Assembly (NCBI GenBank): GCA_003133425.1
Contig: PKXI01000332.1
Location: 1 to 7,682 of the forward strand
Length of the DNA stretch: 7,682 nt
Origin: Acidobacteriaceae bacterium
GTDB taxonomy: Bacteria; Acidobacteriota; Terriglobia; Terriglobales; Acidobacteriaceae
Direction of reading: 5' to 3'
The notes under the pieces are model-generated. The model made no database searches and was not told the DNA's origin. It worked only from the letters and a program-made list of their open reading frames with translations. Positions within the stretch are counted from its first letter, which is position 1. Every line of letters begins with the position of its first letter. The position numbers were made by a program, and so were the translations under genes. Below, piece by piece: positions 1-7,682 of this stretch.

Positions 1-76
1 ATTTTAGCCGGACACTACTGCTAATTTAATTACCCCTGCACAACGGCACCATGACTACTTTGCTACGATGCCGTGA

Positions 77-922
77 CTAGTTTTCAGTGTAGAACTGCGC
101 GATATTACGAAATTTCAGCTGACGGGCGGCCACCAGCAAGTCAATGGGAACGGCTTTGAGTTCGGCCAGGTGCTTTTTGAGTACGTTGCCCAGCAGACCG
201 GTGCCCGCTTCATGATCGGTATGGATGCCGCCCGGCGGCTCGGAAACAATCTCGTCGACGCAGCCAAGCGCGGCCACCTCGGGCGCTGAAATGCGCATGG
301 CTTCTGCGGCCAACTGCTTATGCGAAGCGTCGCGCCACATGATGGCCGCGCAGGACTCGGGCGTGATCACGAAGTAGAGGGCGTTTTCAAGAATCAGCAC
401 GCGGTCGGAGACGGCCAGAGCCAGGGCTCCGCCCGATCCGCCTTCGCCACTGATGACCGAGATGGTGGGAACGCGCAGGCGGGACATCTCAAGAATGTTG
501 CGGGCGATGGCCTCGGCTTGTCCACGTTCTTCGGCGCCCAGGCCAGGATAAGCGCCCGGCAGATCGATGAGGCTGATGACCGGACGGCCGAATTTTTCGG
601 CAATCCTCATGCAGCGCAGTGCCTTGCGATAGCCCTCGGGATGGGGCATACCGAAGTTGCGCTTTACGCGTTCCTTGGTGCTGCCGCCCTTGCGATTGCC
701 GATCACCAGGACCTCTTCGCCGGCGAGGCGCGCCATACCGCAGGCCACGGCCTCATCGTCGCCATAGGCGCGATCCCCGTGAATCTCGCTGAAATCAGTG
801 AAGATCCGCTCGATGAAGTCCATGGGGTAAGGCCGCTGGGGATGACGTGCCCGTTCGATTCTGACCCACGCCGGTGAAACTGCCGGCGCCTGATGGGAAG
901 TTCCGGTTTCCTGTTCGCTCAT
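77..922 (-). CDS. accA: Acetyl-CoA carboxylase carboxyltransferase subunit alpha, N-terminally short
   Basis: With AccD, AccA transfers the carboxyl group from carboxybiotin on AccB to acetyl-CoA, making malonyl-CoA for fatty acid synthesis in the cytoplasm. The 281-residue product matches AccA from about residue 18 onward: an ARHPQRPY segment (25-32), RNFGMPHPEGYRKALR (88-103), the DLPGAYPGLGAEERGQ segment (120-135) and the glycine-rich GEGGSGGALA loop (159-168) typical of the crotonase-fold active site. E. coli AccA, recalled from memory, has about 41 more residues before this block, forming N-terminal helices; these are absent here. The ATG at 922 is chosen because a GGGAGAGG purine run lies about 10 bases upstream. 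A TTG at 1003 would add 27 arginine-rich residues that resemble no AccA sequence. The gene has its own upstream promoter candidate and ends in TAG. A second full-length accA elsewhere in the genome cannot be excluded. Confidence 0.93.
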   Translation of the reverse strand: MSEQETGTSHQAPAVSPAWVRIERARHPQRPYPMDFIERIFTDFSEIHGDRAYGDDEAVACGMARLAGEEVLVIGNRKGGSTKERVKRNFGMPHPEGYRKALRCMRIAEKFGRPVISLIDLPGAYPGLGAEERGQAEAIARNILEMSRLRVPTISVISGEGGSGGALALAVSDRVLILENALYFVITPESCAAIMWRDASHKQLAAEAMRISAPEVAALGCVDEIVSEPPGGIHTDHEAGTGLLGNVLKKHLAELKAVPIDLLVAARQLKFRNIAQFYTEN

Positions 923-968
923 CTTATTCTGGTGCCTCTCCCGGCAGCGTCGCCGTCGGCACTCCTTG

Positions 969-997
969 ATTCTACGGGTAGTAAGCGGTTGGGACAA
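969..997 (-). promoter_or_regulatory. Candidate sigma70-type promoter for accA
   Basis: Read on the minus strand, TTGTCC (992-997, four of six matches to TTGACA) and TAGAAT (969-974, five of six to TATAAT) are separated by exactly 17 bases. Transcription would start near 962, leaving a leader of about 40 bases before the accA ATG at 922. This suggests accA can be transcribed independently of the oxidoreductase operon upstream. The assignment is by eye only. Confidence 0.4.
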
Positions 998-1199
998 ATG
1001 CAATTATCAGTTTTGGATAGGGGAAGGTTGCCTGCTGGCTTCGGGGTTCGGATTATTTCTCAGGTTCCACAGACGAGACCTTGGGCACCGGGATGTCCGC
1101 TGTCTTATTTGTTTTGGTCGTTTCGCAGGTTCAGAATCGAGGGGCACGCGGCACACTGGCCATCGGTATGCCGAGGCGGAAAGGGATTCAAAACAAATG

Positions 1200-1247
1200 C
1201 AGCGAGTCAGCCCCCGCTTCGCGGGGATAGCGGGTCAGCAAGTCAGC
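1200..1247 (-). repeat. Hairpin flanked by imperfect 12-base direct repeats; possible terminator
   Basis: A perfect 6-base stem CCCCGC/GCGGGG (1212-1217 and 1221-1226) closes a 3-base loop. It is bracketed by CAGCGAGTCAGC (1200-1211) and CAGCAAGTCAGC (1236-1247), which match at 11 of 12 positions. A second, weaker hairpin GCAAG/CTTGC can form at 1238-1255. The element begins about 32 bases after the stop of the hoxU-like gene, where a terminator would be expected. There is no immediate U-run on the minus strand, only a looser T-rich stretch about 12 to 20 bases further on. It could be a terminator, an mRNA-stabilising hairpin, or a copy of an interspersed palindromic repeat. Confidence 0.4.
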
Positions 1248-1278
1248 GGGCTTGCGTGTAGGTGCATACAAAGTTCTC

Positions 1279-2004
1279 CTAGAGTGCGCCGTTTGCGTTG
1301 CCGGATCTTTGCGCGGCCAGACGTGATACGGTGTCGCCCTGCTTTACCATCTCGTGGACTGCGAAGCCCTTTTCCGCTAGCGCGCCGGTGGGGCAGGCCT
1401 GGACGCATTTGCCGCAGCCGGTGCAACTGCGGGCATGGCCCCAGTCGTCTTTGAGGTCGCTGACGATGCGGGAGTAGATACCGCGCGAGGCGACTTCCCA
1501 CACATGCGCGCCTTCGATTTCGGCGCAAACCCTTACGCAGCGCGTGCACAGGATGCAGCGATTGTGATCGAGGACGAAGCGCGGATGGGACATGTCGACC
1601 GGCATCCGCGGGTTGTTGTAGGAATAGCGCACGTGGGTTATGCCGAGGGATTGGGCCATCGATTGCAGTTCGCAATGGCTGTTGGAGACGCAGGATGAGC
1701 AGATGTGATTGCGCTCGACAAGGAGTAGTTCGACGGTCATGCGGCGGTATTGCGTGAGTTTTGCCGAGGAGGTCTTGATGGACATTCCATCCTGGATGGG
1801 AGTGGTGCAGGCGGCCAGCAGGCGGTCAGTTCCGGCGAGTTCGACCATGCATACGCGGCATGCGCCGACTGCGCTTAATCCTTTGAGATAGCAGAGCGTA
1901 GGAATCTGCTTTCCATTGGCGCGGGCTGCCTCGAGAATGGTTTCTCCTTCGTGCGCGGTCACCAGTTCACCATCGATGCGGACTGAAATCGTTTTGTTCG
2001 GCAA
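1279..2004 (-). CDS. hoxU: HoxU/NuoG-N-type iron-sulfur diaphorase subunit
   Basis: This is an electron-wire subunit that passes electrons from a NuoF/HoxF flavoprotein through a chain of Fe-S clusters. Domains in the 241-residue product: an N-terminal plant-type [2Fe-2S] fold with C38, C49, C52 and C66; a His-Cys3 [4Fe-4S] site (H100, C102, C105, C111) with HoxU-type rather than NuoG-type His spacing; and two C-terminal [4Fe-4S] sites, C150/C153/C156/C160 and C194/C197/C200/C204. The stretches NHICSSC, DHNRCILCTRCVRVC and EIEGAHVW are very close to cyanobacterial HoxU as I recall it, and the length is that of HoxU (about 240). A TTG start at 2004 is preferred over the ATG at 2085: AAAGGAG lies 7 bases before the TTG, the protein then begins as HoxU does, and the longer form would overlap the upstream gene by 52 bases with unrelated residues. 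No hoxY or hoxH follows. Confidence 0.9.
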   Translation of the reverse strand: MPNKTISVRIDGELVTAHEGETILEAARANGKQIPTLCYLKGLSAVGACRVCMVELAGTDRLLAACTTPIQDGMSIKTSSAKLTQYRRMTVELLLVERNHICSSCVSNSHCELQSMAQSLGITHVRYSYNNPRMPVDMSHPRFVLDHNRCILCTRCVRVCAEIEGAHVWEVASRGIYSRIVSDLKDDWGHARSCTGCGKCVQACPTGALAEKGFAVHEMVKQGDTVSRLAAQRSGNANGAL

Positions 2005-2011
2005 CGGGTTG

Positions 2012-2018
2012 CTCCTTT
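2012..2018 (-). promoter_or_regulatory. Strong ribosome binding site deciding the TTG start of hoxU
   Basis: On the minus strand AAAGGAG is followed by 7 bases and then TTG (2004-2002). It lies inside the 29-base gap after the stop codon of the upstream fusion gene (TGA at 2036-2034). Its position fixes the hoxU start at TTG rather than at the in-frame ATG at 2085, for which I see no equally good site. Confidence 0.75.
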
Positions 2019-2033
2019 CGGGCTCTATCGGTC

Positions 2034-5000
2034 TCACTTCGCACTTGCGGTGATTCTCAGATCGCAGCGAAGACAGCGGCGGCATTCCTCGAGCGCTTCC
2101 TGCGGGCTGAGGCCGGCGACTACTTCATCCTGCGAATGCGCTCTTGCCTGCGCGGGCAGGGCATGGGCGGTGTGGCGGCGGCTGAGGCTTGGCTCACCCG
2201 GCGCCTGGCGGCTGTATTCGAAGTCCGGGAAAATGCGCTCCCAGCGCAGGACTGCGGTTCCCTGGTCAGACTTAAGATTTTGGGGTACCAGGCGCTCATC
2301 AATTTTGCGCGCTGCCTGCTTGCCCCCGCTCATGGCGTTGGACATGTTGGATGCGCCGGTGATGACGTCACCGCCGGCATAGAATCCGGGGCGGCTGGTC
2401 TCAAGCGTGAATCGATCGACGGCGAGCGTGCCTTCCTCCTTGAGTTCAAGGCCGGAGGCGCGGCAGAAGTCCTGGTCAAAGGTTTCACCGACGGCGAGAA
2501 TGACGCTGTCGCATTCGTAGCGTTGCACTTCATCGGTGGGGATGGGGCGGCGACGGCCGGATTTATCGTACTCGCCGAGACGCGTCTTGACGATCTCGAT
2601 GGCCTTTACGCTGCCGTCCGGACCGCCGATGATGCGATGCGGCGCGGCGAGGAAGACGAAGCGCACACCTTCTGCTTCGGCCGCTTCAACTTCCTCTTCG
2701 ATGGCGGGCATGTCTTTGCGCTCGCGGCGATAGAGGATGGTGGCGCTGCCGCCCATGCGCAGAACGGTACGTGCGGAATCGATGGCTGCGTTACCGCCGC
2801 CGATTACGGCCACCTTGGAACCCATCGCGACGTTATTATGACGGGCTACGGACTCAAGGAACGGCAATGCCGGGTAGACGTTCTTCAGCTCGGTTCCGGG
2901 CAGATAGAGCCAGGATTCCTTCCACGTTCCGATGGAGAGGAAGACGGCATCGAAGCTGCTGGCGAGTTCATTGAGCGGAATGTCGAAGCCGACCCTGGTG
3001 TTGAAGACCATCTTTACGCCGACGCCCTCGATGAGATCGAGTTCGCGGCGGAGGACGGACTTGGGCAGGCGGTACTCGGGAATTGCGAAACGCAACATGC
3101 CGCCGGCTTCGCTGCGCTCTTCAAAGATAGTGACATCGTGGCCGAGCATGGCTAGATAGAACGCTGCGGTGAGGCCGGTGGGGCCTGAACCGGCAACGGC
3201 GACCTTGCGGCCGGTAGGCTCGAGTTTGCGCGCACGGATTCGCTCGAGCAGGGGGGCGAAACGGTCAGACTGATAGATTTCGTCGGCGATGAAGCGGTGC
3301 ACCTCGCGCATGTTCACCACTTCGTCGAAGGATTGGCGGCGGCAGCGGTTATCGCAAGGATGCTGGCAAACCCGGCCGGTGGATGCGGGCAAGGGGTTGT
3401 CGAGAACGACGGATTCAAATGCGTCTTCGAGGCGGCCTTCCTGAAAGAGTTCGAGGAAGCGCGGGATATTCATGCGCAACGGACAACTGTTTTCGCAGGG
3501 TGAGAGGGCGAGTTCCTGACAGACGCCTGCGCGGCAGCGGTGAGCGACGATGTGGTCTTCGTACTCCTCGCGGAAGTGGCGGATGGTGGTGAGCACCGGG
3601 TTCGGCGCAGATTGGCCGAGGCCGCAGAGCGAACATTCACGGACCATGCGGCCTAGTTCGTCGAGAAGGGGCAGGTGGTCTGAGGTTCCATCGCCTCTGG
3701 TGATGGCGTTGAGAATGCTGAGCGCTTTGTTGAGGCCGACTCTGCATGGGACACACTTGCCGCAGGACTCGGAATGCGTGAATTCGACAAAGTAGCGGGC
3801 CACATCGACCATGCAATTGTCTTCATCGAGAACGACCATGCCGCCGGAGCCCATGATGGAGCCGATCTGCGCGAGGGATTCGTAGTCGACGGGTGTGTCG
3901 AGCATTTCGACGGGGATGCAGCCGCCGGAGGGTCCGCCGGTTTGCACTGCTTTTACGCGGCGGCCAGCGACTGCGCCTTCGCCGATGTCGTAGATGAAGC
4001 TCTTGAGCGGAGTGCCGAGGGGCATCTCGACCAGACCGGTGTTCTGGATTTTGCCGACGAGCGAAAACACCTTGGTGCCGGGACTCTTGGCGCTACCGGT
4101 CTCAGAAAACCATTGCGGGCCGCGGCTGACGATGGGGGCGATGTTGCACCAGGTTTCTACGTTGTTGATATTGGTCGGCTTGCCATACAGGCCTTTTTGC
4201 GCGGGGAACGGAGGGCGGGGATGCGGGCGGCCGGCGAAGCCTTCAAGCGAAGCGATGAGGGCTGTTTCTTCGCCGCAGACAAAGGCGCCTGCGCCCTGCA
4301 CCAGCTCGATGTTGAAGTTGAATCCGCGGTCGAGGATATTGTTGCCGAGCATTCCATATTCGCGGGCTTGCTCGATGGCGCGCGTGAGACGGCGAACGGC
4401 GAGCGGGTACTCGGCACGCACGTAGACGATGCCTTCGGTGGCGCCCATGACGTAGGCACCGATGATCATGCCCTCGAGCAGCGAATGCGGATCGCCTTCG
4501 ATCTCGTTGCGATTCATGTACGCGCCGGGGTCGCCCTCGTCGGCGTTGCAGATGATGTATTTGACGTCGGACTTGGCCTTGGCAAGGAAGTCCCACTTGT
4601 TGCCGGTGAGGAAACCGGCGCCGCCACGGCCACGCAGCCGGGCTGCCTTGATCTGCTCGATTACCGCGTCTTTGCGGCCGTCGATGAGCACCTTGTAGAG
4701 GGCCTGGTAGCCGCCGACGGCGATGTATTCCTCGATGTCGGAGGGATTGATGAGGCCGCAGTTGCGAAGGACGATCTTCTTTTGGCCTTTGAAGAACGGG
4801 AGCGCGTTCCAATGTGCGATCTTCGGGTAGCCCTGGCCGTATTTCACGTTGGCGGTGATGTGGTCCCACTCTTCGATTTTGCAAAGGATGAGATCGGGGG
4901 GCATGATGCCGCTAGAGATGCCTTCGAGAATGCGGCCTGCGTCGTGGGCCTGCACGCGATGCAAGATGACGAGCGGGCAGCCGGGAAGCCGGACGCCTAC

Positions 5001-5225
5001 GAGCGGCTCCTCAAAGCACGAACCGAAGCAACCGACGCCTGTGAGTTGCACGTCGAGCCCGCTGCCTTGAATGGCCCCGTTCAGGGCGTGAAAGAGTTCT
5101 TCCGCGCCGTTGCCACGGCCACAGGTACCCATGCCCACGGTCAGGCGTGGGACGGCTGGTATCAGCTTGGCCAAGCCGGATTCACGTACAGCGTTAAATG
5201 CGCCGATGTCCTGAATTCGCGGCAT
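2034..5225 (-). CDS. NuoF/HoxF diaphorase fused to GltD/NfnB-type NADPH oxidoreductase
   Basis: A 1063-residue two-flavin fusion. Residues about 25-115 are a thioredoxin-like NuoE-type domain with C35, C66 and C70. Residues about 150-555 are NuoF/HoxF: GRGGAGF (199-205) and NADEGDPGA (227-235) for FMN and NADH, GAGAFVCGEETAL (311-323), and a [4Fe-4S] site from C488, C491, C494 and C534. Residues about 560-975 are GltD-like: N-terminal cluster cysteines C564, C569, C577, C581, C620, C624 and C628; an FAD GxGxxG loop at 679-684; a second Rossmann loop GGGNAA (809-814) followed by YRRER (832-836), a pattern linked to NADPH binding; and a GGD FAD motif at 951-953. The tail carries C1048, C1051 and C1054. 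The ATG overlaps the upstream stop as TAATG. Inferred role: NADPH/NAD(H) electron exchange, perhaps with ferredoxin. Ordinary HoxF and NuoF lack the second half. A hydrogenase or formate dehydrogenase partner encoded elsewhere remains possible. Confidence 0.93.
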   Translation of the reverse strand: MPRIQDIGAFNAVRESGLAKLIPAVPRLTVGMGTCGRGNGAEELFHALNGAIQGSGLDVQLTGVGCFGSCFEEPLVGVRLPGCPLVILHRVQAHDAGRILEGISSGIMPPDLILCKIEEWDHITANVKYGQGYPKIAHWNALPFFKGQKKIVLRNCGLINPSDIEEYIAVGGYQALYKVLIDGRKDAVIEQIKAARLRGRGGAGFLTGNKWDFLAKAKSDVKYIICNADEGDPGAYMNRNEIEGDPHSLLEGMIIGAYVMGATEGIVYVRAEYPLAVRRLTRAIEQAREYGMLGNNILDRGFNFNIELVQGAGAFVCGEETALIASLEGFAGRPHPRPPFPAQKGLYGKPTNINNVETWCNIAPIVSRGPQWFSETGSAKSPGTKVFSLVGKIQNTGLVEMPLGTPLKSFIYDIGEGAVAGRRVKAVQTGGPSGGCIPVEMLDTPVDYESLAQIGSIMGSGGMVVLDEDNCMVDVARYFVEFTHSESCGKCVPCRVGLNKALSILNAITRGDGTSDHLPLLDELGRMVRECSLCGLGQSAPNPVLTTIRHFREEYEDHIVAHRCRAGVCQELALSPCENSCPLRMNIPRFLELFQEGRLEDAFESVVLDNPLPASTGRVCQHPCDNRCRRQSFDEVVNMREVHRFIADEIYQSDRFAPLLERIRARKLEPTGRKVAVAGSGPTGLTAAFYLAMLGHDVTIFEERSEAGGMLRFAIPEYRLPKSVLRRELDLIEGVGVKMVFNTRVGFDIPLNELASSFDAVFLSIGTWKESWLYLPGTELKNVYPALPFLESVARHNNVAMGSKVAVIGGGNAAIDSARTVLRMGGSATILYRRERKDMPAIEEEVEAAEAEGVRFVFLAAPHRIIGGPDGSVKAIEIVKTRLGEYDKSGRRRPIPTDEVQRYECDSVILAVGETFDQDFCRASGLELKEEGTLAVDRFTLETSRPGFYAGGDVITGASNMSNAMSGGKQAARKIDERLVPQNLKSDQGTAVLRWERIFPDFEYSRQAPGEPSLSRRHTAHALPAQARAHSQDEVVAGLSPQEALEECRRCLRCDLRITASAK

Positions 5226-5238
5226 TATTTTTTCTCCT
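5223..5238 (-). promoter_or_regulatory. TAATG overlap and ribosome site coupling the fusion gene to hoxE
   Basis: The hoxE-like gene ends in TAA (5227-5225) and the fusion gene begins with ATG (5225-5223), sharing one base. AGGAG (5238-5234) sits 8 bases before this ATG, inside the end of hoxE. The arrangement predicts translational coupling and matched amounts of the two subunits. Confidence 0.75.
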
Positions 5239-5776
5239 GCGTGAGTGCTCTTACTTCGCGCTGCAAGGTGCGCTCGTTTACGTGACTCAGGATGTGGTGG
5301 TTGACTTCAACCACCGGAGCCAGCGCGCACTGGCCGAAACAGGCGACGGTGCGGATGGTGAACTTGCGGTCAGGCGTAGTGAGCGCGAGTTTGTCTGCCT
5401 CGCTGGATTCGCTGACTTCAGGATCGCTCAGGCCGAGATCGAGGCAGACCTTGGCCAGCAGGTCGCGCGAGCCGCGGGTGTGGCAGGCAGTGCCGCGGCA
5501 GACGCAGATGACGTTGTCGCCTTGCGGATCGAGATTGAAGAGCGCGTAAAAGGTGGCGGCGCTGTAGATTCTGGCCGAAGGGACACCGGTCTGATCCGCG
5601 ATATAGCGCAGCGACTCCATGGAGAGAAACTTGTGCGCGTTGGCGGTTTGGACGGCTTCCAATATTCCCAGCAGGGCACCGGGCTTGTCTTTGTGCTTTG
5701 CGATTACCTGGTCGATGAGTAGCTTTTCGTGAGCTTCAAGGACCTCGTGGACAACTTCACTGGCGGCGGTTGGCAT
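5225..5776 (-). CDS. hoxE: NuoE/HoxE-type [2Fe-2S] subunit
   Basis: First gene of the three-gene operon. NuoE-type proteins hold one [2Fe-2S] cluster in a thioredoxin-like fold and pair with NuoF; the cluster is often viewed as a side store or an exit route for electrons. The 183-residue product has the N-terminal helical part (about 15-80, including SLRYIADQTGVP and the SAATFYALF segment, 72-80) and the four expected ligands C93, C98, C146 and C150 in the motifs CRGTACHTRGS and CFGQC. Length is normal for the family. The ATG at 5776 has GGAGG 4 bases upstream, in a longer GGGGAGGA run. hoxE is used as a symbol because the neighbours are HoxF-like and HoxU-like; nuoE would be equally defensible, and a formate dehydrogenase gamma (FdsG-like) role cannot be ruled out from sequence alone. 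Confidence 0.9.
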   Translation of the reverse strand: MPTAASEVVHEVLEAHEKLLIDQVIAKHKDKPGALLGILEAVQTANAHKFLSMESLRYIADQTGVPSARIYSAATFYALFNLDPQGDNVICVCRGTACHTRGSRDLLAKVCLDLGLSDPEVSESSEADKLALTTPDRKFTIRTVACFGQCALAPVVEVNHHILSHVNERTLQREVRALTQEKK

Positions 5777-5885
5777 GCTTCCTCCCCACCCTGACTACAG
5801 GACCGGCTCCGAGGAGAGGAGACAGGAGATAAAGGAAAAGAGCACTCGCCAACAACAATTGGGATACCTGGCGAAAGAGGATAAT

Positions 5886-5919
5886 GCGCTTTAACGGCAA
5901 GCGCTATCCGTACGCGCTT
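5886..5919. repeat. Three alternating inverted half-sites upstream of hoxE
   Basis: GCGCTT (5886-5891), AAGCGC (5899-5904) and GCGCTT (5914-5919) are spaced by 7 and 9 bases. The middle copy can pair with either neighbour, so two mutually exclusive 6-base stems are possible in RNA; alternatively these are binding half-sites for a regulator. The set lies 110 to 143 bases before the hoxE start codon. Confidence 0.4.
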
Positions 5920-5981
5920 CTCCCCAGAGATTGTCCGTTGGAACATTGATACTGTCCGGTGTGGTTCCGATGTGCCTCAGA

Positions 5982-5997
5982 TCACAGTCGATTGTGA
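5982..5997. promoter_or_regulatory. TCACA-N6-TGTGA dyad, candidate operator
   Basis: A perfect 5-base inverted repeat with a 6-base spacer sits roughly in the middle of the divergent region. The arms are those of a CRP/FNR-family site but in the opposite order (CRP sites read TGTGA-N6-TCACA), so a CRP assignment is not justified. A symmetric DNA-binding dimer controlling one or both divergent units is plausible. Confidence 0.3.
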
Positions 5998-6130
5998 CTA
6001 TTGAGTTTGGCGTGCGGCTAAAGGTAAGGGGCAACGTGGGTTAGGCTGAAAGATCCTCCCCGGAGGAACAGGTTTGGACTCGGAAGTGGCTGCCGAGCAG
6101 TTTCCGGTTTGCCGATCAGGCAATCATAAT

Positions 6131-6162
6131 TTGTTCAGGACTCAAATCCATCTCTATATAAT
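6131..6162 (+). promoter_or_regulatory. Candidate promoter for the NmrA-like gene
   Basis: A perfect TATAAT lies at 6157-6162 inside TATATAAT. The -35 is weak: TTGTTC (6131-6136) sits 18 bases before an overlapping TATATA (6155-6160), or 20 before the perfect hexamer. Transcription would start near 6169, giving a leader of about 78 bases. A TTGCC-N5-GGCAA inverted repeat (6109-6123) lies just upstream of the -35. Confidence 0.45.
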
Positions 6163-6246
6163 TCGGTCTGCATTGAGTTGTGAACGCAGAAATCCCCGGG
6201 TGATGTGAGCACGGATCGTGCAGAAAGTCTGCAATGGAGGAAGGTC

Positions 6247-7200
6247 ATGGCTGATCTAAAGGTAATTGCGGTTGTAGGAGCGACCGGCGCGCAGGGCGGC
6301 GGTTTGGTTCGTGCGATTCTTAACGACCCAAATGGCGGTTTTGCCGCGCGGGTGCTTACCAGGGATGTGAACGGTGCGAAGGCGAAGGAGTTCGCGAAGC
6401 TGGGCGCTGAGGTTGTAGCCGCAGACGTCGACGACGCGGCGAGTCTGAAGAAAGCATTCGAGGGCGCATATGGAGCCTATTGCGTAACGTTTTTCTGGGC
6501 GCACTTTTCTCCGGAAAAGGAGATGGCAGAAGCGAAGGCAATGGCGGAGGCCGCGAAGGCTGCAGGTCTGCGACACGTGATCTGGTCGACGCTGGAGGAC
6601 ACGCGCAAGTGGGTACCGCTGAGCGACGACCGCATGCCGACGCTTCAGGGCAAATACAAGGTCCCGCACTTTGACGCCAAGGGCGAGTCCGACCACTTTT
6701 TCACAGACGCGGGAGTTCCGACGACGTTCCTGCTGACGTCGTTCTATTGGGACAACTTTATTTACTTCGGCATGGGCCCGAAAAAGGGACCGGACGGAAA
6801 GTTGGGCATCACACTTCCGATGGGCGACAAGAAACTGCCGGGCATCGCCGCCGAAGACATTGGCAGGTGCGCCTACGGCATATTCAAAAAAGGCGATGAG
6901 TTCATCGGCAAGCGGGTTGCAATTTCAGGCGAGAATTTGACCGGCGCGCAGATGGCAGCGGTTTTCAGCGAAGTGCTCGGGAAGGAAGTCCGCTACAACA
7001 GCGTGCCTCCCGAGGTGTACCGCGGGTTCGGTTTCCCCGGCGCGGATGATTTGGGCAACATGTTTCAGTTCAAACGCGACTTCGAAGACTATTTTTCCGG
7101 GGCGCGCCGCCCTGAATTCGGCCGGAGCCTGAACCCCTCATTACAAAGCTTCAAGATGTGGCTGACGCAGAACAAGAACGCGATTCCGCTCGAAGACTAG
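6247..7200 (+). CDS. NmrA-like NAD(P)-binding protein (HSCARG/NMRAL1-like)
   Basis: An atypical short-chain dehydrogenase-fold protein of 317 residues. The Rossmann loop GATGAQG (11-17) opens the protein, and T38-R39 after the second strand is where NmrA/HSCARG proteins contact the NADP 2'-phosphate. Downstream, segments such as HFDAKGE, the GFPGADDLGNMFQF stretch and a LNPS...W tail line up with human HSCARG (NMRAL1) as I recall it, including the C-terminal region, so this is a full-length family member. Known members act as NADP(H)-ratio sensors rather than enzymes; some bacterial relatives (QorB-like) reduce quinones. No signal peptide or membrane segment is visible. The ATG at 6247 is chosen because GGAGG lies 6 bases upstream; a GTG at 6205 would add 14 unsupported residues. 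It is divergent from the oxidoreductase operon, so a regulatory or functional link through NADPH is possible but unproven. Confidence 0.88.
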   Translation: MADLKVIAVVGATGAQGGGLVRAILNDPNGGFAARVLTRDVNGAKAKEFAKLGAEVVAADVDDAASLKKAFEGAYGAYCVTFFWAHFSPEKEMAEAKAMAEAAKAAGLRHVIWSTLEDTRKWVPLSDDRMPTLQGKYKVPHFDAKGESDHFFTDAGVPTTFLLTSFYWDNFIYFGMGPKKGPDGKLGITLPMGDKKLPGIAAEDIGRCAYGIFKKGDEFIGKRVAISGENLTGAQMAAVFSEVLGKEVRYNSVPPEVYRGFGFPGADDLGNMFQFKRDFEDYFSGARRPEFGRSLNPSLQSFKMWLTQNKNAIPLED

Positions 7201-7359
7201 TAGGAAGTGCCTGACGCTAGTCCACGGCGCAGGTCCGGGCCTGGCGGCTCGGGCTTGCGCTGGATTCCGCTTTATCCACACATCTAATCCAGTTTTCATG
7301 CGTGGCGGCGGTGAGGTGTGCCGGGCAACAATGAATGACGGAGAATCCTGGAGACCGGC

Positions 7360-7682
7360 GTGACGGGCAAACTGGAAATGATTGTGGGGCCGATGCGGAG
7401 CAACAAGACCGCGGAGCTGCTGCGGAGAATCGAGACGCGGCGGCAGTATGCCAAGCAGTACGTGATGCTGTTGAAGCCGAGTGACGATACCAAGGCGGCG
7501 GCCGGAGTGGTGGAAAGCCGGAATCGGAACGGATGCGGGAAGATGGAGGCGGTTGAGTTCCGGTCTGCCGATCCGTGGACGGTGCTGCCGGTTCTGGCGG
7601 CTACGGAACAGCAGATTGGCAAGCGTGTGGAATGTATAGCCATCGACGAGGGGCAGTTTGTTCAGGATCTCTTCGCGTTTAC
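7360..7682 (+). CDS. tdk: Thymidine kinase, N-terminal part (runs off window)
   Basis: Thymidine kinase phosphorylates thymidine to dTMP using ATP in the pyrimidine salvage pathway. About 107 residues are present before the window ends in mid-codon. Type II Tdk features: a P-loop at residues 10-17 reading GPMRSNKT, followed by AELLRRIETRRQYAKQ; a VMLLKPSDD segment (35-43) matching the family KPxxD; a SRNRNG stretch resembling the family SHNG; and DEGQF (96-100) matching the Walker B-like DEAQF. Two departures are visible: Asn15 where the family usually has Gly before the catalytic Lys16, and Gly98 for the usual Ala. The GTG start at 7360 has GGAG 6 bases upstream (7350-7353) and an in-frame stop at 7336 bounds it. 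An ATG at 7378 would leave only three residues before the P-loop. The nucleoside- and zinc-binding C-terminal half lies outside the window. Confidence 0.8.
   Translation, partial: MTGKLEMIVGPMRSNKTAELLRRIETRRQYAKQYVMLLKPSDDTKAAAGVVESRNRNGCGKMEAVEFRSADPWTVLPVLAATEQQIGKRVECIAIDEGQFVQDLFAF

Follow-up and report, generated by a model that had tools for sequence, protein, structure and literature searches.

Among the described enzymes closest to the locus analysed here, the StnABC/Nfn-Bfu transhydrogenases (of Sporomusa ovata and Caldicellulosiruptor, and NfnABC of Thermococcus sibiricus) combine a BfuBC-type core, with its ligand positions for cluster B2, and a permuted GltD/NfnB module for NADPH that holds two [4Fe-4S] clusters and flavin adenine dinucleotide (FAD); the module lies inside the NuoG/FdhF-like subunit StnC, and ferredoxin-like and FdhF-like domains are also present. 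NfnAB has the same NfnB fold with NADPH, FAD and two [4Fe-4S] clusters. HoxEFUYH, a group 3d-type [NiFe] hydrogenase, has the order E-F-U, and the bifurcating hydrogenase of A. mobile (NiFe-BfuABCSL, or HydABCSL; 7t2r) carries a ferredoxin-binding domain with clusters B3 and B4 besides its hydrogenase subunits. A GltD-type domain is likewise tied to hydrogenase in the glutamate synthase-linked group A2 [FeFe] hydrogenases of HydDB. Here we examine a 7,682-nucleotide stretch of an Acidobacteriaceae bacterium (contig PKXI01000332.1, positions 1 to 7,682; hereafter the window, meaning the whole stretch), which carries an E-F-U operon whose F subunit is fused to a GltD/NfnB-like NADPH module.

Published rules for these enzymes rest on domain composition. 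According to the available part of Schut et al. (2022), a BfuB subunit needs Complex1_51K, NADH_4Fe-4S and IPR017896 (clusters B3 and B4), the histidine ligand of B2 is stated to be absent from non-bifurcating homologues, and family members have BfuC and BfuA partners and use NAD(H), ferredoxin and a third substrate at the same time; the A2 rule of HydDB, in the part available, asks that the gene downstream of the catalytic subunit have GltD and no NuoF. No published description of a NuoF-GltD fusion was found in the literature searched, most subscription journals lying outside its coverage. We consider it somewhat probable that the products of the operon form a soluble three-subunit iron-sulphur flavoprotein which exchanges electrons between NAD(H) and NADP(H), goes back to the diaphorase part of a [NiFe] hydrogenase of the Hox type, and retains a third port on U.

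The fused F subunit and its operon

The operon consists of three overlapping open reading frames (ORFs) on the minus strand, encoding a HoxE/NuoE-like, thioredoxin-like [2Fe-2S] subunit (BfuC homologue; 5225..5776, 183 aa, PF01257 at 4e-36), the fused F subunit (HoxF/NuoF plus GltD/NfnB-like module; 2034..5225, 1063 aa), and a HoxU-like subunit homologous to BfuA and the N-terminal part of NuoG (1279..2085, 268 aa), after which an accA ORF (1003-77) stands in place of hydrogenase genes. The ORFs and Pfam matches thus bear out the gene order read in the initial annotation, as they do its further claims that a complete GltD/NfnB-like module lies on the F chain and that NAD(H)/flavin mononucleotide (FMN) and NADP(H)/FAD sites, the latter with two dinucleotide-fold loops and a YRR motif, are found together on a single polypeptide. 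Four Pfam domains follow one another on F: PF01512 (residues 192-363), PF10589 (474-558), PF14691 (561-652), and PF07992 (674-968). Residues 1-572 (3510..5225, minus strand) comprise an N-terminal thioredoxin-like [2Fe-2S] domain and a NuoF core with the FMN/NADH site and cluster B1, and their best sequence match in the PDB is subunit B of the A. mobile enzyme (7t2r_B, E 5e-185). Residues 573-1063 (2034..3509, minus strand) form a circularly permuted GltD/NfnB-like NADPH module that replaces the ferredoxin-like domain, ends in a C-terminal CxxC (1051, 1054), and is predicted to hold two [4Fe-4S] clusters as well as FAD and NADPH sites.

The ligands of these sites are conserved to a high degree. 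All five B2 ligand positions of the A. mobile BfuB are kept in F (C471, T509, H558, C564, and C569), with the histidine and the three cysteines present in 72 of 72 fused proteins and Thr509 in most. The cysteines of B1 and B2, His558, and the GltD-cluster cysteines 577, 581, 620, 624 and 628 are invariant in the same 72 proteins; C1051 and C1054 are invariant in the 69 that extend that far, C35, C66 and C70 are kept in 71 (one row being gapped), and Y832, R833 and R834 of the YRR motif do not vary among the 44 fused proteins aligned. At the FAD-proximal ligand position the window has His643; the residue is histidine in 68 of the 72 proteins and lysine in the other four; beyond the StnC lysine, the ligand sets of the GltD-domain clusters are presumably those of dihydropyrimidine dehydrogenase. 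The junction itself (residues 558-581; 3483..3554, minus strand), when mapped on the A. mobile BfuB, brings the B2 ligands H558, C564 and C569 next to C577 and C581 of the first GltD cluster. That cluster's first cysteine lies 7 residues past the last B2 cysteine (C569) in all 69 fused proteins measured, three (L025, L035, L146) being left out as they gave no match to the spacing motif. In unfused proteins without an adjacent Y gene the next cysteine follows 11-12 residues on in 43 of 45 cases, and the other two are interrupted fused copies (L022, L177).

A model of F alone, built with AlphaFold2 without E, U or cofactors (mean predicted local distance difference test score 87.8, predicted template modelling score 0.81), aligns over residues 23-640 to the whole of BfuB including the ferredoxin-domain region (9n5v_B 2-591, 562 aligned), and over residues 571-1057, among the folds listed, to the NADPH domain of StnC. 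The best 120 of 7996 relatives scored are 83-91% identical to F over 96-100% of its length. Among the matches listed, a search with F returned at least 80 loci; of 80 listed, 47 match beyond residue 900, 31 end near residue 583, and two are cut by contig ends (L017, L047). Because the 120 relatives are near full length and 47 loci match past residue 900, the fusion lies far beyond chance. F is split into two ORFs in L177, L178 and the [FeFe]-linked L042, and a run of N breaks L022, through either assembly error or decay. The nearest named relatives among the matches listed are metagenome-assembled genomes (MAGs) of Acidobacteriaceae type, with 91% identity to a partial Terracidiphilus contig (L017).

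The flanking subunits are conserved as well. E has its closest PDB chains in HydC, Nfn-ABC C and StnA, and its four cysteine ligand positions are invariant in 65 fused loci examined. U contains PF13510, PF10588 and a 4Fe-4S dicluster, and by Pfam carries no catalytic domain; its sequence provides a [2Fe-2S] site, a Cys3 4Fe-4S site and the dicluster, and 15 cysteine positions are invariant in 66 fused loci examined. Its score against the HoxU equivalog model NF005745 is 352.1 bits, above the curated cut-off of 333. The annotated U start at 2085 may be too early, many relatives being 236-245 aa long, and the true start may lie further downstream.

These features support the likeness to the Stn and Nfn bifurcating enzymes that had been proposed at first sight, since the nearest relatives with solved structures are Stn/Nfn-ABC, HydABC and NiFe-Bfu, and the A. 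mobile enzyme is the closest solved sequence to F, to U, and to the hydrogenase large subunit of the relatives. The narrower idea of an Stn on one chain holds for the shared parts but not for their arrangement: the GltD module is attached to the BfuB-type C-terminus of F, at the position of the StnB ferredoxin-like domain, whereas in Stn it sits on the NuoG-like subunit, and the ferredoxin-like and FdhF-like domains of Stn are absent here, U being 268 aa long without an FdhF-like part. In StnC the FAD-proximal cluster has a lysine ligand, K170, described as strictly conserved in the available text of PMC10482914, where the window has His643; with the GltD module on another subunit and histidine at this position, the fused complex is not an Stn. 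A Stn-like bifurcating transhydrogenase, in which U, like StnC, would be the entry point of NADPH electrons, bifurcation would take place in the FMN/B2 core, and free ferredoxin would dock at or near B2 or HoxE, would account for the common modules, the same permuted GltD fold, and the retained B2 histidine and cysteines, and in the available part of PMC11647496 HoxE of Synechocystis is suggested to be needed for ferredoxin reactivity; given the missing StnB domain, whose place on the chain the GltD module takes, the substituted lysine, and a U subunit that lacks the inserted GltD and FdhF-like parts, we regard such an enzyme as quite improbable.

The other described systems differ in turn. 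Compared with HoxEFUYH, F is about twice as long and bears the NADPH module, although U is a HoxU by the curated cut-off; compared with the A. mobile enzyme, the NADPH module is found only in F. Relative to NfnAB, the module is circularly permuted and the NAD(H) site is that of NuoF, and no NfnA subunit with an NAD(H)/a-FAD site was found among the five window proteins scanned with Pfam. In contrast to the HydDB group A2 arrangement, GltD and NuoF here make up one chain, which in the relatives concerned lies upstream of a HydA-type U. Complex1_51K and NADH_4Fe-4S (PF01512, PF10589), the B2 ligands, and adjacent BfuC and BfuA partners are all present as in a Bfu enzyme; no Pfam domain of the ferredoxin type IPR017896 (B3, B4) occurs in F, residue 560 being followed by PF14691 and the GltD module, and since that domain is demanded in BfuB, the fused complex falls outside the published definition. 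The available part of PMC11406978 describes Sub-type II BfuABC homologues of Hydrogenedentota and Acidobacteriota without B3, B4 and B5; compared by that description only, they lack B5 where F keeps its N-terminal cysteines, and the words GltD, NADPH, fused and fusion are absent from the main text as available.

Partners and descent of the fused subunit

Wherever the contig allows, the gene order at the loci listed is E-F-U, and the nature of what U brings with it varies. Ten loci had their U scanned with Pfam: in eight (MAGs named Paludibacter, Omnitrophota, Lentisphaerae, Akkermansiaceae, Spirochaetes, PVC and Firmicutes) it carries the [FeFe]-hydrogenase domains PF02906 and PF02256, in L043 a molybdopterin domain, and in L023 it is short. 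Acidobacterial fused loci outside the window's clade have a short U followed directly by Y (PF01058) and H (PF00374, with RICGIC and DPCLSC motifs), and for the H of L007 the nearest PDB chain is the large subunit from the bifurcating [NiFe] hydrogenase of A. mobile. Of 384 genomes that represent the order of G020 (completeness filter 80), 44 contain fused F: 25 of the window type (80-93% identity) and 19 at 73-75%. In all 19 the [NiFe] large-subunit gene H adjoins F and shares its contig. No H match (E<=1e-140) lies beside F in any of the 25, with the qualification that the contig of G331 ends too soon (143 bases downstream of U, in L156) and that the downstream region of G326 was unopened; 505-822 bases follow U in 14 other YH-less loci as first taken, several of which were re-examined with longer flanks. 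Six fused loci with an unassigned U partner (L006, L015, L027, L030, L034, L040) stand outside the counts by partner type.

It follows that the absence of a hydrogenase gene after U, noted in the window from the beginning, extends across the window's clade and, with the moderate tree support given below, is a trait of that clade alone. As a property of the fused subunit at large it is rejected in view of the 19 genomes with adjacent H and the [FeFe]-type loci: outside the clade, fused F is seen to pair with [NiFe] H, with [FeFe]-type U or, rarely, with molybdopterin-type U. The last is represented by a Dehalococcoidia MAG (L043:683-5845), where U bears PF00384. At L023 and L030, Y and H lie upstream of E-F and not downstream of U. 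One genome with a YH-linked fused F (G170) also encodes a second one, 47% identical (L181:5639-15172), with an 840-aa U that by eye has a molybdopterin-oxidoreductase-like extension, and with NfnA- and NfnB-like genes adjoining.

In a tree of the NuoF part of F (129 sequences; L022, L047, L089 and L177 were dropped as interrupted or cut), the 25 YH-less sequences come out as a single clade nested among the NiFe-linked ones (support 0.63), and canonical HoxF falls in a separate clade elsewhere; the YH-less U proteins again group together in the U tree, with support 0.17, support values in both trees possibly being shifted by rerooting. Since the YH-less sequences group together in the two trees, the simplest account is a single loss of the hydrogenase genes from this locus. 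The window's U lies among HoxU and the HydA-type U of [FeFe]-linked loci lies apart from it, so fused F has worked with different U types: U is HydA-type in [FeFe]-linked and HoxU-type in [NiFe]-linked loci, and F keeps its module in both. Among unfused sequences, two BfuB proteins with ferredoxin domains (L115, L116) are closest to the main fused group; at their places (L179, L180) the neighbours are E, U and a roughly 527-aa protein that by eye resembles an FMN glutamate-synthase domain. Ratios of nonsynonymous to synonymous substitution rates in the 12 closest YH-less pairs are 0.037-0.164 for F, 0.038-0.278 for U, and 0.073-0.316 for E; the three subunits are thus under purifying selection in the window's clade, and every cluster cysteine is kept.

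Of the remaining genes in the window, accA (77..1003, minus strand; PF03255, 3e-114) is judged a neighbour outside the complex; it was considered as a functional partner and rejected, being downstream of U in just 14 of 27 window-type loci examined. Divergent to E-F-U are an NmrA-like NAD(P)-binding gene (6205-7200) and, by eye, the apparent beginning of a thymidine kinase gene (7360-7680).

Hydrogenases and PntB elsewhere in the genomes

Consistent co-occurrence with distant hoxYH genes had been named in the initial annotation as an observation that would speak against a hydrogenase-free role. HoxH does occur at a distance in 24 of the 25 window-type genomes (all except G334), yet this does not decide the matter, because the remote H has its own hoxEFU in every window-clade locus opened and HoxH is present in 31 of the 35 genomes without the fusion in the same block of 60 (a block set by listing order, not by taxonomy, and with approximate edges). 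The distant H was opened in 11 window-clade loci (L085-L089, L097, L101, L102, L182-L184; nine of them from the 25 genomes), and all 11 show hoxEFUYH with readable E, F and U and an unfused F of its own; in L086, L088 and L089 this F is spread over more than one frame. In one of these loci (L182:3-9808, genome G337), which lies about 6 kb from the fused E-F-U, the canonical hoxEFUYH is accompanied by a maturation-protease-like gene, and an apparent pyruvate:ferredoxin oxidoreductase, identified by eye, stands beside them. The fused operon could conceivably be a second diaphorase that docks in trans with the remote HoxYH and couples H2 to both NADPH and NADH; the ancestor of the fused complex worked with YH, U has stayed conserved, and HoxEFU and HoxYH of Synechocystis are separable on isolation (PMC7363133, available part), all of which would suit this arrangement together with the wide presence of HoxH. 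We nevertheless think it unlikely, given the dedicated EFU of the remote YH, the nearly equal frequency of HoxH in genomes without the fusion, and changes in U at sites 103, 131, 166 and 244, which are nearly fixed in NiFe-linked U and altered in the YH-less clade, site 131 adjoining C132.

A second type of hydrogenase adjoins the operon in three genomes. In G333, G337 and G371 a Complex-I-like group-4 [NiFe] hydrogenase operon (L173:5410-11827, L166, L165) lies divergent to E-F-U; its large subunit is 360 aa long and contains the motifs RVCGICSNIH and DPCYSC. The large subunit was matched in 31 of the 384 genomes, and within the block in 19 of the 25 genomes of the window type, compared with 8 of the 35 others (Fisher p 6e-5). 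Although adjacency and enrichment would be expected if E-F-U were the input module of this membrane-bound, complex-I-like hydrogenase in place of NuoEFG, a correlated-evolution test on the HoxH gene tree was not significant (likelihood ratio 7.15, p 0.13), six window-type genomes have no group-4 hydrogenase, and in four others (G331, G020, G338, G327) its operon lies near the canonical Hox operon instead. In G327 (L183:7121-13227) the group-4 large-subunit gene ends 36 bases upstream of canonical hoxE on the same strand, so that the two hydrogenases may share an operon there; this placement further lowers the odds of a role as input module, which we regard as very improbable.

PntB is found in 4 of the 25 window-type genomes, in 17 of the 19 YH-linked ones, and in 7 of the 35 block genomes without the fusion. 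Being equally rare in the latter, its lack goes with the block, and the idea that the fused complex compensates for absent PntAB finds no within-block difference to rest on (p 0.75). The same comparison bears on a plain NADPH:NAD+ transhydrogenase without energy coupling, whose U arm would serve stability alone: the 21 window-type genomes without PntB would fit it, but the block genomes without the fusion are about as poor in PntB, and the cysteines of all U clusters are kept, beyond what stability need demand, so that this simplest enzyme is hardly probable at all.

Predicted electron routes and their meaning

On the reading that we favour, a soluble NAD(H):NADP(H) exchange complex with a third port on U, NADPH would reduce the FAD in the GltD module, and electrons would pass through the module's two [4Fe-4S] clusters to B2, the [2Fe-2S] of HoxE, FMN, and NAD+, or in the reverse direction. 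NADP(H) would thus probably feed the arm used by ferredoxin in HydABC and Stn, as the GltD module occupies the position of the ferredoxin-binding domain of BfuB, and the complex is predicted from its sequence to work like a member of the Bfu/Hox enzyme group with one arm exchanged. Docking of the module on F would fit the variation of U between HydA and HoxU types while F keeps the module. A second arm would lead from B1 to the HoxU clusters and would once have carried electrons to or from hydrogenase, as in the hydrogenase-bearing relatives, where electrons from H2 would enter through U. Because the hydrogenase genes have left the operon and the U arm is intact, a third partner probably still docks on U in the window's clade, most likely ferredoxin, flavodoxin or a protein encoded elsewhere. 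In Synechocystis, HoxEFU lacking HoxYH passes electrons to and fro between NAD(P)H, ferredoxins and flavodoxin, which makes the last two the first candidates; bifurcation was raised as a possibility by the authors of that work (PMC7363133, in the part available).

Several observations weigh against this proposal. The B2 ligands are also present in the unfused HoxF of canonical operons, so they are no proof of a bifurcating site, and their value as a mark of bifurcation is weakened. Docking of GltD on U, as in Stn, may be an alternative to docking on F, and the FAD-proximal ligand position is His643 and not the lysine of StnC. For exchange between NADP(H) and NAD(H) alone a third arm would be superfluous, yet U has been retained in full. 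The YH-less clade has moderate support, with the F and U tree values given above, and the molybdenum-linked and three [FeFe]-linked Firmicutes fused F proteins group with HydB proteins that have ferredoxin domains (0.93), for which reason the fusion may have two origins or have been passed on by recombination. A further proposal, that the core bifurcates and has NADP(H), not ferredoxin, for a low-potential partner, making the complex of the window's clade an energy-coupled transhydrogenase with a third carrier on HoxU, is tentative, and we hold it to be improbable on present evidence.

In the fused subunit the ferredoxin arm of the HydABC/Stn/Hox core has given way to an NADPH arm, an exchange seen in complexes linked to [NiFe], [FeFe] and molybdopterin partners; neither printed rule picks it out, as the Bfu census demands the replaced domain and the HydDB A2 rule excludes NuoF. 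If NADP(H) does serve the low-potential port, the coupling of the core would become testable with two pyridine nucleotides and no ferredoxin; the hydrogenase-linked relatives would split the electrons of H2 into NADH and NADPH, and the complex of the window's clade would, with a third carrier on HoxU as counterpart, either join NADH and NADPH or split them, its low-potential port being free of ferredoxin. The YH-less clade offers a natural case of the independent role that has long been suspected for HoxEFU.

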